A DNA stretch of 64,000 bases from Patellaria atrata CBS 101060. Lineage: Eukaryota; Ascomycota; Dothideomycetes; Patellariales; Patellariaceae. The stretch covers positions 124,001 through 188,000 of the forward strand of contig MU006091.1 in the NCBI GenBank assembly GCA_010093705.1, given 5' to 3'. The position numbers and the translations under genes were made by a program. This document shows positions 11,046 through 14,511 of this stretch, in pieces (position 1 is the first letter of the stretch; the number at the start of each line of letters is the position of its first letter). Under the pieces are notes generated by a model. It saw only the letters and a program-made list of their open reading frames with translations, was not told where the DNA came from and ran no database searches.

Positions 11046-11053
11046 AGGTGCGG
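11046..11053. repeat. left target-site duplication of hAT element
   Basis: AGGTGCGG lies directly outside the left terminal inverted repeat and is repeated exactly outside the right one. An 8-bp duplication is diagnostic of the hAT superfamily. Confidence 0.97.
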
Positions 11054-11069
11054 CAGTGTGGCCAACGAT
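11054..11069 (+). repeat. left terminal inverted repeat of hAT element
   Basis: CAGTGTGGCCAACGAT matches the reverse complement of the right end at 15 of 16 positions. The CAGTG start fits the CA(G/T)-type termini usual in hAT elements. Confidence 0.95.
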
Positions 11070-11322
11070 CCGTATCGATAAGGTATTAGTATTCTCGGTA
11101 TTTCATCGGTATTGTATCGAATATCATAATACCTTAACAATACCCTTGGCATTTTAAGATTTGTTTATATTCTTTAGAATTCAACTAAAATATTATCGTT
11201 TTCTTAGAAATTTAATTAAAATAAAGATACTCTTCGTACGAAGGGATTGTATAGCTATGAACAACATCTATAGCTGTTCTAAGATAGAAGGCACGAGGGC
11301 GTGCCTACGTGCCTGCCTGTCC

Positions 11323-11386
11323 ACCTGTCTACTGGCCCACCTGTCTACTGGCCCACCTGTCTACTGGCCCACCTGTCTACTGGCCC
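11323..11386. repeat. 16-bp minisatellite, four perfect units
   Basis: ACCTGTCTACTGGCCC is repeated four times without change, with partial degenerate copies on both sides. It lies between the left end of the hAT element and the CT-rich leader of its plus-strand gene. Confidence 0.95.
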
Positions 11387-11499
11387 ACCTGCCTACCTGC
11401 CAGTTTGTACAAAATAGATCTTCTTTTGAATTTCTCAATTTCTCTTCTTCTCTTCTCTTCTTCTCTCCTTCTCAATCTTTGATTTTAGTAACTCAAAGT

Positions 11500-11547
11500 G
11501 TAAGTACTCAGCTTAAACCTATCGTACGAAGGCTAATAATACTATAG
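11500..11547 (+). other. probable 5'-UTR intron of the hAT accessory gene
   Basis: GTAAGT at 11500, a GGCTAAT branch-like site near 11531 and TAG ending at 11547 outline a 48-bp intron of the kind seen in this window's host genes. It follows a CT-rich leader at about 11420-11480, and the ATG of the accessory gene begins 2 bp after the acceptor. One CGTACG site lies inside it. Confidence 0.6.
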
Positions 11548-11548
11548 T

Positions 11549-12082
11549 ATGGCCAATATGCAAGTAGTTCTCTATAACCCAGCGATCACGGCTGCCGCTC
11601 ACGCGAACCGCAACCCGGTTCTACTTGTAACACAGCAGCAATTGGCTCCGTGGTGTCACAGCCCACAGAATAGAGCACTTCTGGCCGTCGGTGGAGGTGT
11701 TGATGTTGAGTTCGTACGCGACTCTATCACACCCGAGCAGATTGGATCTCATAGGCAGTCATATGTCAATGGGATTCTTATCCAGTCTCGTGGAGGTGAT
11801 GTTGATCCTTGTGCGGCTTGTCGTACGAGAGATTTCCGTCCCTTCCTTAGTTGTCACCGCGCTGAGGGACACTTTGGCGGAACATGCGCCAACTGCAAAT
11901 GGCGCGACCATGCAGCACGCTGTTCCGTACGAGCTGGTGGTCCAGATGAGCCTGCTCAAGGAGCCAGGGTGCTTGGACCTGGTTCAGGGGTTGACGGAGC
12001 TGACGGCACCGCCCCTGGGAATGCTATTGTGCTGGACGACGATGAGGGGCTTCCTCCCCAAAATGCTATAATCATTGGTTGA
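11549..12082 (+). CDS. hAT-borne accessory protein with DUF3716-like Cys motif
   Basis: A 177-aa protein encoded inside the transposon, convergent with the transposase (stop codons 138 bp apart). The N-terminal half has no recognised domain. A Cys cluster at about 87-131 reads C-X2-C-X10-C-X10-C-X2-C-X8-C and includes GGTCANC; this resembles the fungal DUF3716 motif as I remember it and is probably zinc-binding. The C-terminal 45 residues are Gly/Asp-rich with two similar patches (GNAIVLDDD and QNAIIIG). The coding region looks more GC-rich than the transposase gene, which could mean capture from a host gene, but it carries three CGTACG sites at the same density as the rest of the element. 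Its function is unknown. A DNA-binding, regulatory or anti-silencing role is speculation. Confidence 0.75.
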   Translation: MANMQVVLYNPAITAAAHANRNPVLLVTQQQLAPWCHSPQNRALLAVGGGVDVEFVRDSITPEQIGSHRQSYVNGILIQSRGGDVDPCAACRTRDFRPFLSCHRAEGHFGGTCANCKWRDHAARCSVRAGGPDEPAQGARVLGPGSGVDGADGTAPGNAIVLDDDEGLPPQNAIIIG

Positions 12083-12219
12083 GCAGAGCTTCGTACGAAG
12101 TATTCTTTGGCGTTTGAGCGTTCTGGCGTTTCGGTGTTCTGCTTTGCCTAGCTATCCAGGGCTGTTGGTAGCACTCAGACGTGATCTGTACCTTTACGTG
12201 TGTCTGAGATCAGTAGCCA

Positions 12220-14322
12220 TTAGGTGAAACTAAACAGATCGTACGGACCTTTCAATAAATTCTTTTGTTTTGCCCAATGTTTAAGACATTCAGTATGTTC
12301 TAACTCTCTTGAACTTAAGCGTGATCTTTCCCATGGTACCGTACGACGAGCTGCTGAAAACACTCGTTCTGGTTCATCGCTCATTGCTGGAATTGAGAGG
12401 ATCTCAATTGCAAGTATAGATAATCGTGGAAACCGAGCTCTTTGAGTATCAGTTAACCACCATTTAATAGGTGAAATGTCCCCAATATCGTACGGATCTT
12501 GGTTGATATAGTCTTCAAACTCATCTCCACTTAAGGGAGCCTTATTAAACCACTCAATTTGATTAAGAACACGTTCAAAATCAGTCATATTCTCAGGTGG
12601 AGTTCTTCTCTTTTCTTCGTACGATGCTGATAACGGTACTGAACAGGTTTTACTCCATTTTTCCCAGTATAATCTAGCAAGCTTAATCATCTGCTCGCCT
12701 TTCCCTCTTTCCTTCTTCCAACCTTCCCTAATAAGCTTTGTACGATAGTAAGGAGTAAAGATTGTCGCAAGAATATGGCAAGGTGAGGTAAGAAGTGTAG
12801 AATAATACTTCTCAAAAAGCTGTAAAGCTTTATGAAGCTGAGGTCCAAAGTCTTTCTTATATATACGTTCATACTTTCTTAAAAGAATATCAAAACCAAG
12901 CATTGTACGAAGTGTCATACCGAATGTTAGAGAATGGCCTTGATTTAGAAGCGTTGCCTCATAAAAAGGGCGAAGAATTGTATGGATCGTACGAAGCTTT
13001 TCCCAATCTTTATGCGAAAGAGAATCTTCTTCAAGATCACTATACCATCTCTTAACATACGAGTCAATTTCTTCTTCTTTACTTAGCGCAATATCTATCA
13101 TGATATACCAGCTATTCCATCTCGTACGATTATCAAGTGGAATCATTCTCTCTGCTCTTGTGGTAAAATCTTTCAAATGACGTGTAGAGCTTCGAATATG
13201 AACTATAATATTATGAAGCTTTCCAAGTGGCCCTACCGTACGGAAGGTTGACTGTCTCTGCTTTCTTAAGCTGGCTTGTCTTATCTCATATTCCTCTGTT
13301 GATACTTCAAGTGTAAGACTACTTAGCCCTTGAGATTCAGTCTGTTCCTCAGCGTCGTACGACTCAAGTAAGTCTAAGTCTATTGTACCTGCAAAGAGAA
13401 AGGTTTGTACAACCAAGTTAATAATATGGCCTATACATCGAATTCTTTGAGATGAATAGTCCCATATCAGCTCTTGACTCTCTTGAAGATATTGACTAAG
13501 TAACTGGCAAAGCTTATCATTCGTGGAAGCATTATCACCAATAATAGTACCAAGCCTTCGTACGATACCATAGTCTTGAAGAACTGGAAGAAGTATCTCA
13601 AGTTGTTCACTAGATGAATGGTTTCCTACTTCTTTAAGACCAAGTAATGCTCTTTGAGGTATCTCCTCCGTACGATCAATGAAATGCGCGATAATACCAA
13701 GAAGAAGTATCCGATTTGGAGAAGTCCAGATATCAAGTGAGATATGGATGTTTGCAGGCGCTGATTGAAGTTGTTTTCGTACGAGATCTTTTTGGAAAGA
13801 GAAAGAAGCTGTAATTCTTTTTGAAATTGTTGAGTGTGAAGATGGAATAAAGCTCTCTGACTGCGGGTTAAGAGCTAGACAAAATGCGCGAAATTCAGGC
13901 CATTCAATCATACGGAAGGGGAGTCTTCGTACGGTAAGTAGTTGAGATAGCGCTTTATCAATAATATTTTGATTAAGAATCTTTTGTAAGACCAGCTGAT
14001 CCAGCTCATTTAATCCAGTATGCTCGCTTGACCGGTAAAGATCTAATAGTCCTTGGAAAGCGTCTTCCCCTATCTTCGTACGAGGCTCTTCTAAAGCTAT
14101 ATTGTGTGTTTTAAGAAGATGCTTCTTAAATTTTGTACTAATTGTTGTATTATATGAACAATTATATTTACACTGATAGAGAGGCTTGTTTTGATCGTTT
14201 CGTGGAGGGTCTCCTATAGTTTGTATACGCGTATGTTTCCAAAGAAGGGATCTTGTTGGTCGTACGATAGTAGATGATGGTTCTGAGGTAAAACTTATTA
14301 TTGAATCAATTTCAGAAGCCAT
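12220..14322 (-). CDS. hAT transposase
   Basis: Cut-and-paste transposase of 700 aa on one open frame. A BED/C2H2-like finger lies at about residues 49-73 (Cys51, Cys55, His68, His73) and would bind the element's ends. The RNase H-like core shows Asp197 (SLDIWTS), Asp263 (IGDNAS) and Glu652 (ERVFS), which correspond to the D, D and E of Hermes. The hAT-specific CxxH (Cys296, His299) and the Arg401-Trp402 pair are also present. The C-terminal hAT dimerisation region (about 615-685) holds the WW and S-P-A-x-S-x-x-x-E-R-V-F-S pattern. All expected parts are there, so the protein looks functional. The start follows the AT-rich right end of the element. The gene is AT-rich compared with host genes. 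Confidence 0.95.
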   Translation of the reverse strand: MASEIDSIISFTSEPSSTIVRPTRSLLWKHTRIQTIGDPPRNDQNKPLYQCKYNCSYNTTISTKFKKHLLKTHNIALEEPRTKIGEDAFQGLLDLYRSSEHTGLNELDQLVLQKILNQNIIDKALSQLLTVRRLPFRMIEWPEFRAFCLALNPQSESFIPSSHSTISKRITASFSFQKDLVRKQLQSAPANIHISLDIWTSPNRILLLGIIAHFIDRTEEIPQRALLGLKEVGNHSSSEQLEILLPVLQDYGIVRRLGTIIGDNASTNDKLCQLLSQYLQESQELIWDYSSQRIRCIGHIINLVVQTFLFAGTIDLDLLESYDAEEQTESQGLSSLTLEVSTEEYEIRQASLRKQRQSTFRTVGPLGKLHNIIVHIRSSTRHLKDFTTRAERMIPLDNRTRWNSWYIMIDIALSKEEEIDSYVKRWYSDLEEDSLSHKDWEKLRTIHTILRPFYEATLLNQGHSLTFGMTLRTMLGFDILLRKYERIYKKDFGPQLHKALQLFEKYYSTLLTSPCHILATIFTPYYRTKLIREGWKKERGKGEQMIKLARLYWEKWSKTCSVPLSASYEEKRRTPPENMTDFERVLNQIEWFNKAPLSGDEFEDYINQDPYDIGDISPIKWWLTDTQRARFPRLSILAIEILSIPAMSDEPERVFSAARRTVPWERSRLSSRELEHTECLKHWAKQKNLLKGPYDLFSFT

Positions 14323-14487
14323 TATTTAGGAGAAGAACCACCTTATCGTACGTAAGGGTGACAAATTCTATTAAATTGTGGGTTTCGCTGTATTAAGCGA
14401 AGTATTGTTAAAGTATTATTAAGGTATTTATCGATATCGAGCCGATACAATACTAATCCGTATTCGATAGTTATCTAATACTAAAGT

Positions 14488-14503
14488 ATTGTTGGCCACA
14501 CTG
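14488..14503 (-). repeat. right terminal inverted repeat of hAT element
   Basis: Reverse complement reads CAGTGTGGCCAACAAT and pairs with the left end at 15 of 16 positions. Confidence 0.95.
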
Positions 14504-14511
14504 AGGTGCGG
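14504..14511. repeat. right target-site duplication of hAT element
   Basis: AGGTGCGG is identical to the copy at 11046-11053. Confidence 0.97.

Follow-up and report, generated by a model that had tools for sequence, protein, structure and literature searches.

Short words that are repeated along a genetic element and act as DNA are known from several systems. The accessory protein TnpA of En/Spm, a member of the CACTA superfamily, binds a short motif repeated in subterminal clusters, and the DNA uptake sequences of Haemophilus and Neisseria are short words spread across coding DNA, where DNA-level selection keeps them as an uptake mark of the whole bacterial genome. In Arabidopsis, the VANC21 motif YAGTATTAY of VANDAL21 transposons lies in non-coding parts, in same-orientation arrays and often in tandem repeats (available portions of PMC5735166 and PMC10398659); it was absent from the coding probes tested, and motif density was concluded to matter (same portion of PMC5735166). 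For hAT transposons, the accessible excerpts place the AAACGG repeats of the Ac transposase within the terminal 200 bp (PMC3260210) and describe subterminal repeats of Hermes that are bound through the BED domain (PMC10368747). Here we describe a 3450-bp hAT transposon of the ascomycete Patellaria atrata CBS 101060 that carries the 8-bp palindrome YCGTACGR as an even lattice through its coding and non-coding DNA. It occupies positions 11054-14503 of a 64,000-nucleotide stretch of contig MU006091.1 (GCA_010093705.1, positions 124,001 to 188,000), hereafter the window, and is flanked by an 8-bp target duplication. It has two open reading frames (ORFs), ORF1 for a protein with DUF3716 (PF12511), a domain of unknown function, and ORF2 for the transposase. 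Searches of the open-access literature on the motif, and on CGTACG with transposons, found no description of an even lattice through coding DNA in the accessible text.

The core hexamer CGTACG occurs 34 times in the window, against a mean of 7.4 and a maximum of 17 in 100 shuffles. The element holds 21 of these; the other 60.5 kb hold 13, not about ten as a preliminary description of this DNA had it, a mild rise over a first-order expectation of 7.2. Dinucleotide shuffles of the element gave only 0.32 CGTACG on average (maximum 4 in 2000 shuffles), which bears out the earlier remark that 21 CGTACG and two TGTACG crowd it. Seventeen of the 21 sites are in coding DNA. In shuffles of synonymous codons, which keep the protein and the codon usage, the transposase gene had 0.81 CGTACG instead of 14 (maximum 6; none of 2000 reached 14), and ORF1 had 0.30 instead of 3 (maximum 3, reached by 2 of 2000); the non-coding parts contain 4 against 0.14 expected. 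The two kinds of shuffle that had been proposed as a check thus both fall far below the observed counts. When all 64 palindromic hexamers of the transposase gene were compared with the codon shuffles, CGTACG stood at z = 15.9 and the runner-up at 4.0. The full consensus YCGTACGR is matched by 19 of the 21 sites, the base before the core being T in 17 and C in 4, and the base after it A in 15 and G in 4; the flanks further out show no strong preference.

All three reading frames of the transposase gene contain sites (6, 4 and 4), as first reported, and so do two frames of ORF1. The sites are also evenly spaced: for the 21 sites the coefficient of variation (CV) of the spacing is 0.44 (P 6e-5), with a largest gap of 370 bp and a minimum of 86 bp (0 of 200,000 random placements). 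Inclusion of the TGTACG at 12739 and 12904 yields 23 sites spaced 84-288 bp apart, with a mean of 141.5 bp and a CV of 0.33, an evenness attained by none of 400,000 random placements; the range of 84-288 bp and mean of 141 given earlier are correct on this count. Both TGTACG are true decayed sites, since TCGTACGA stands at their positions in three diverged copies of the element. The TGTACA words at 11406 and 13406, in the large gaps, had likewise been taken for decayed sites, but no diverged copy carries CGTACG at these two places and they were rejected. The outer 181 bp on the left and 151 bp on the right are free of the word, in agreement with the 150-180 bp initially noted; the first CGTACG lies 182 bp from the left end and the last 151 bp from the right end, and the sites do not cluster at the ends as subterminal repeats do. 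None of the tandem arrays found in the element (three entries, at 11321-11396 and 11432-11473) contains CGTACG. The tandem repeat at 11321-11396 is present as a single unit in all 12 other copies checked.

The same genome has further copies of the element: C4, 93-98% identical by segment, the more diverged C28, C17:412k and C1:907k, and fragments. Nearly every site of the window has its counterpart in the aligned copies. We took the 23 ancestral sites and counted those that could be aligned. The core is intact at 19/22 sites in C28, 19/23 in C17 and 12/16 in C1; the corresponding intact fractions of other hexamers are 0.47, 0.49 and 0.37 (P 1.5e-4, 8e-4 and 2e-3). CpGs inside sites were kept in 39/42, 40/44 and 27/30 cases, respectively, whereas those elsewhere were kept in 54/84, 56/88 and 39/68 (P 3e-4 to 1e-3). 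When the two decayed sites are left out, the third codon positions within sites are identical in 32/32, 33/34 and 21/22 cases, relative to about 0.85 outside (P 0.007, 0.04 and 0.13). These tests are not independent, given the kinship among the diverged copies; the DUF3716 genes of C28 and C17 are 97.5% identical. In C28 and C17 no direction of substitution prevails and there is no strong pattern of repeat-induced point mutation, while in C4 changes of G>A and C>T are mildly favoured.

Overall, the lattice is almost certainly genuine and maintained by selection on the DNA itself. The proposal of DNA-level selection made at the outset is well supported by the codon shuffles, by the conservation of sites and CpGs in three diverged copies and by a shifted trace in six distant relatives, described below. 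An origin in mutational or conversion bias, codon usage or protein constraint, with no binder involved, would agree with the mild rise of CGTACG outside the element (13 versus 7.2). We nevertheless regard it as very improbable: shuffles that preserve codons fail to give the counts and set CGTACG far above the next palindrome (15.9 versus 4.0), three frames and non-coding DNA alike carry sites, the CpGs in sites outlast other CpGs, and substitutions in C28 and C17 are balanced.

Eight further copies (C15, C5, C17:160k, C23, C7, C2, C1:229k and C16) are identical over their first 1300 bp, with 0/1300 differences in all 28 pairs; judged by this identity and by their flanks, they are the product of a very recent burst. 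The six of them that could be read at both flanks each have a different 8-bp target duplication. The eight looked like chimeras, as their matches covered no more than the first 1.38 kb and, in some of them, the right end, but their interiors read N and this interpretation was dropped. Copy C4:369762-373792 contains three insertions of ~160 to 270 bp, each flanked by 5-bp element repeats, which are perhaps solo long terminal repeats or small elements.

By its sequence, the element is a hAT transposon. Beside its 8-bp target duplication it has near-perfect terminal inverted repeats of 16 bp, and its ends, CAGTGTGGCCAAC, fit the CAGNG start of fungal hAT inverted repeats, a type of end reported for other fungal hATs (PMC3441728, accessible part). 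Among ten other copies with both flanks, eight have an 8-bp target duplication (C4, the six young copies and C17:412k), C28 has one of 7 bp and C1:907k has none. The transposase has a BED/C2H2-like finger pattern in its N-terminal part and the dimerisation region in its C-terminal part; PF05699 was matched by all 41 rows of the transposase alignment, and the transposase profile matched solved Hermes transposase structures at 1.6e-24. ORF1 scored 46.3 bits against the PF12511 profile, whose curated cut-off is 22. The features of the element are collected in Table 1.

Table 1. Features of the hAT transposon and its CGTACG lattice in window coordinates
Feature	Position	Strand	Remarks
Left target-site duplication AGGTGCGG	11046..11053	+	8 bp same on both flanks
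Left terminal inverted repeat CAGTGTGGCCAACGAT	11054..11069	+	94% complementary to right end
Left subterminal GTATT repeats, 6	11083..11143		either strand
Site 1 (TCGTACGA), 5' non-coding	11235..11240		intact in 5/5 aligned copies
16-bp tandem repeat, 4.8 copies	11321..11396	+	5' non-coding
Site 2 (TCGTACGA), before ORF1	11523..11528		intact in 5/5 aligned copies
ORF1, 177 aa, DUF3716 (PF12511) protein, Cys/His cluster	11549..12082	+	E 4.1e-12, residues 76-128
Site 3, ORF1	11713..11718		FVR frame
Site 4, ORF1	11822..11827		RTR frame
Site 5, ORF1	11926..11931		SVR frame
Site 6, between ORF1 and ORF2	12092..12097
ORF2, 700 aa, hAT transposase	12220..14322	-	Dimer_Tnp_hAT (PF05699) 4.7e-15
Site 7, ORF2	12240..12245		PYD frame
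Site 8, ORF2	12340..12345		RTV frame
Site 9, ORF2	12489..12494		PYD frame
Site 10, ORF2	12618..12623		SYE frame
Decayed site TGTACG	12739..12744		TCGTACGA in copies C28, C17, C1
Decayed site TGTACG	12904..12909		TCGTACGA in copies C28, C17, C1
Site 11, ORF2	12988..12993		RTI frame
Site 12, ORF2	13123..13128		RTR frame
Site 13, ORF2	13237..13242		RTV frame
Site 14, ORF2	13356..13361		SYD frame
Site 15, ORF2	13559..13564		IVR frame
Site 16, ORF2	13669..13674		RTE frame
Site 17, ORF2	13778..13783		LVR frame
Site 18, ORF2	13928..13933		TVR frame
Site 19, ORF2	14077..14082		RTK frame
Site 20, ORF2	14261..14266		IVR frame
Site 21, before ORF2 start	14347..14352		intact in C4; TCGTATAT in C28 and C17
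Right subterminal GTATT repeats, 8	14390..14490		either strand
Right terminal inverted repeat ATTGTTGGCCACACTG	14488..14503	-
Right target-site duplication AGGTGCGG	14504..14511	+	8 bp same on both flanks

Over the three frames CGTACG encodes only RT, [APST]Y[ADEGV] or xVR, which is the basis of a peptide-trace test that works on proteins alone. We applied it to the window transposase and 120 listed of 282 relatives (121 proteins), with residue shuffles as the reference. The window protein has 18 trace peptides against 5.9 expected. A z of at least 3 for the CGTACG trace was found in 52/121 proteins, and the next of the 64 palindromes, TGCGCA, reached it in 8/121; a slightly altered pattern with fresh shuffles gave 44/121, and the backwards pattern used as a control gave 0/121. 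In 19 full-length proteins with the trace, including that of the window, each of the three peptide classes is in excess (mean z 4.4, 1.9 and 1.0), against 0.9, -0.4 and -0.3 in 19 full-length proteins without it. As these groups were picked by total score, the independent evidence lies in how the classes covary in a set of 43 proteins: RT and VR correlate with rho 0.56 (P 1e-4), and the other pairs, at 0.23 and 0.24, are not significant. The relatives were found by similarity to a trace-bearing protein, which may favour carriers. No consistent other palindrome appeared among the listed per-protein results for relatives without the trace. Viral contigs were searched with the transposase and with the alignments of transposase and DUF3716, and prokaryote contigs with the former alignment; neither set returned a usable relative; their lone locus, L072, is a weak match with 2 CGTACG in 7.6 kb and no lattice, and a three-site lattice pattern had 0 matches in viral contigs.

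Six relatives (P0033, P0037, P0043, P0064, P0088 and P0093), 36-40% identical to the window protein, have an excess of trace peptides at positions unlike those of the window (z 3.0-5.3). They belong to one clade with two subgroups and so represent at most a few independent events. Because this deep clade has its excess at other positions, the density of the word appears to be kept while its position turns over. As to the question raised initially, whether position or only density is conserved, copies in the same genome keep position, one distant clade shows the excess elsewhere, and closer relatives have about half or more of their trace peptides at columns of the window. These data also bear on the idea that the lattice is a recognition mark for host silencing or genome defence that the element cannot lose. 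Its even spread and its retention in diverged, transposase-dead copies would fit such a mark, but a harmful mark should be lost, and the sites are instead kept against background decay, and at other positions in the deep clade; we consider this idea highly unlikely.

A trans-acting factor very probably binds at the lattice. The ends of the element carry a different repeat, GTATT/AATAC, with 14 occurrences in the outer 130 + 130 bp and 5 in the rest; it is kept at the ends of five other copies tested, with 5-8 per end. By its resemblance to the usual hAT subterminal repeat, GTATT is probably the likelier transposase site. The presence of this separate repeat at the ends argues that the lattice needs another protein than the transposase. 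Alternatively, the transposase finger might bind the lattice sites as subterminal repeats that extend far inward and help synapsis. The repeated short words bound by hAT transposases in the excerpts on Ac and Hermes speak for this, but those known sites cluster at the ends, where the element has no CGTACG over 181 and 151 bp and 14 GTATT instead. Finger sequences, compared by eye, also do not divide relatives with the trace from those without it. A role of the finger at the lattice is thus improbable.

The DUF3716 protein is the obvious candidate binder, and this assignment has about an even chance. The 13 PF12511 matches that the genome yielded are all inside copies of the window element. In 32 aligned DUF3716 sequences, C88, C102, C113, C116 and H108 are invariant, and C91 and C125 nearly so. 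The ratio of nonsynonymous to synonymous substitution (dN/dS) is 0.38-0.39 for the window gene compared with those of C28 and C17. Five distant hAT loci of the same genome, with transposase pieces ~30% identical, contain 1, 0, 0, 2 and 0 CGTACG in 3.3-3.9 kb each and gave no PF12511 match, one of the loci being partly N. In the accessible literature we found no paper on the domain and PF12511 only in a passing mention; DUF3716 does not occur in the available text of a study of TET genes in fungal transposons (PMC12730594).

We propose, with slightly less than even confidence, that the YCGTACGR lattice is an element-wide array for a dimeric factor, probably the DUF3716 protein. The lattice would consist of evenly spaced binding sites over the whole element, kept by DNA-level selection regardless of coding, and the palindrome would suit binding by a symmetric protein dimer. 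The most likely binder would be the DUF3716 protein, given the Cys/His cluster in it; it would act in trans on copies and coat them with roughly a site in every 140 bp, a density similar to one for each nucleosome, and the transposase would read GTATT at the ends instead. The least certain part is the function: most plausibly the coat would keep the chromatin of the element open against silencing or mark its DNA as self, in the manner of VANC.

The same word was found in a second type of transposon. A genome scan for paired CGTACG gave 101 pairs against 44 in a reversed control, and among the pairs listed (to C8) there were clusters in pogo-type elements (HTH_psq, DDE_1). These elements carry CGTACG above chance, more weakly than the hAT element. 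Two related pogo deletion derivatives, L069 1264-2382 and L070 1524-2389, have 6 CGTACG over 1118 bp and 5 over 865 bp, where 0.13 and 0.08 would be expected, with the word beside the terminal repeats. The L070 derivative is nested in another pogo-type element, beside an array of short direct repeats. Five more pogo places (of 87 matches) have 4, 2, 4, 0 and 1 CGTACG. In codon shuffles of four of these places and the C5 derivative, the C11 place being left out, CGTACG was the top of the 64 palindromes in C16, C10, C8 and the C5 derivative, and not in C17. The pogo excess is suggestive; the numbers are small and the pieces related. Two side observations were made: P0169, a pogo-type transposase from a metagenome, has a CGTACG trace of 15 versus 5.9 (z 4.2), and L071 (C7:215707-215934) has four CGTACG within 230 bp, with no transposon frame recognised by eye.

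These pogo elements raise the alternative that a host protein binds YCGTACGR, that unrelated transposons gather its sites for expression, replication or escape from silencing, and that DUF3716 does something else. The density of the word in the two derivatives, its top rank in four of five pogo coding stretches and the broken DUF3716 frame of eight recent hAT copies are all in its favour. However, among pogo relatives from elsewhere (best 120 of 4177) only 2/120 reach z >= 3, like other palindromes, although the trace method has little power in pogo, with four sites per gene. As pogo relatives show no trace and hAT relatives do, it seems to be the hAT lineage that the word goes with. When the whole genome was scanned for asymmetric pairs over two gap ranges (12 and 9 pairs versus 4 and 1 in controls), only lone pairs were found besides the hAT copies and pogo derivatives. 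A host binder is, on balance, rather unlikely.

Several observations weigh against the proposed coating by a dimer of DUF3716 protein. Regarding the protein, there is one weaker match outside the element (C27, E 1.8e-4), dN/dS between C28 and C17 is about 1.1, and the eight identical young copies as well as C4 have a disrupted frame, so those copies use DUF3716 in trans or do without it. A structural model (predicted local distance difference test score 72.8) has no similar solved structure, which makes DNA binding by DUF3716 a guess from the Cys/His cluster. DUF3716 relatives show no clear CGTACG peptide trace (mean z 1.0, fifth of 64 palindromes), and no PF12511 match was found inside the pogo-type elements, though the word is present there. 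Regarding the sites, conservation in the closer copies, which have diverged little, is not distinguishable from background (C4 19/23 versus 0.85; C23 8/8 versus 0.83), and no fixed nucleosome or helical phase of the sites was detected (Rayleigh P 0.5-0.8 at 147-180 bp).

The relatives add to these points. In the closer ones, about half or more of the trace peptides are at columns shared with the window, so part of the trace may be inherited or protein-conserved. RT at residue 660, for one, is conserved in 38/41 rows, in keeping with protein constraint, and 34/40 relatives have no significant excess at unshared columns (mean z over 40, 0.29). Moreover, 17/41 full-length transposases are without the trace (z < 1.5), and on the tree of these 41 the label z >= 3 must change state 7 times (5 times or more if well-supported branches alone count), whereas shuffled labels require 14 changes; the lattice is thus gained or lost within the family. 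The preliminary description had named related elements with the same proteins and without enrichment as what would refute it. With the 17 transposases that lack the trace this partly applies, and the lattice is no constant trait of the transposase family.

Comparison with the known systems sets the element apart from each. What it has in common with VANDAL/VANC, as described in the available portions, is that a DNA transposon encodes an accessory protein and repeats a short motif many times, at a density confined to the family. The earlier comparison with VANC holds for this logic only: VANC21 motifs are directional, mainly non-coding same-orientation arrays (PMC5735166, in part), whereas the sites here are palindromic, evenly spaced, outside tandem repeats and to 17/21 in coding DNA, and the element is a hAT. 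With the Ac and Hermes repeats, which the excerpts describe as bound by a protein of the element, it shares the superfamily and a repeated short word; unlike them, CGTACG fills the interior, and the ends lack it and carry GTATT repeats. En/Spm differs in that the lattice is interior and even and the element has CAGTG ends and a hAT transposase, not those of CACTA. Like DNA uptake sequences, the word is spread through coding DNA under DNA-level selection, but in a transposon and not as a mark of a bacterial genome.

If a protein binds the sites, the coding sequence of the element is shaped by two codes, and its transposase had to tolerate whichever residues the word can encode. The peptide-trace method can be used to seek such overprinted words in protein families for which there is no DNA. 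In a broader version of the proposal, which is possible though doubtful, a widespread group of fungal hATs marks itself over its whole length, genes included, with a fixed palindrome at roughly nucleosome-scale spacing, with density kept by selection as individual sites are gained and lost, a DUF3716 dimer as the coat and unrelated pogo elements of the same genome sharing the protection through sites of their own. If the proposal is true, DUF3716 would gain a testable job, and self-marking or anti-silencing by transposons would extend from plants to fungi with a different architecture. The broader version would amount to a novel means of self-marking by a transposon, overlaid on the sequence that encodes its proteins.

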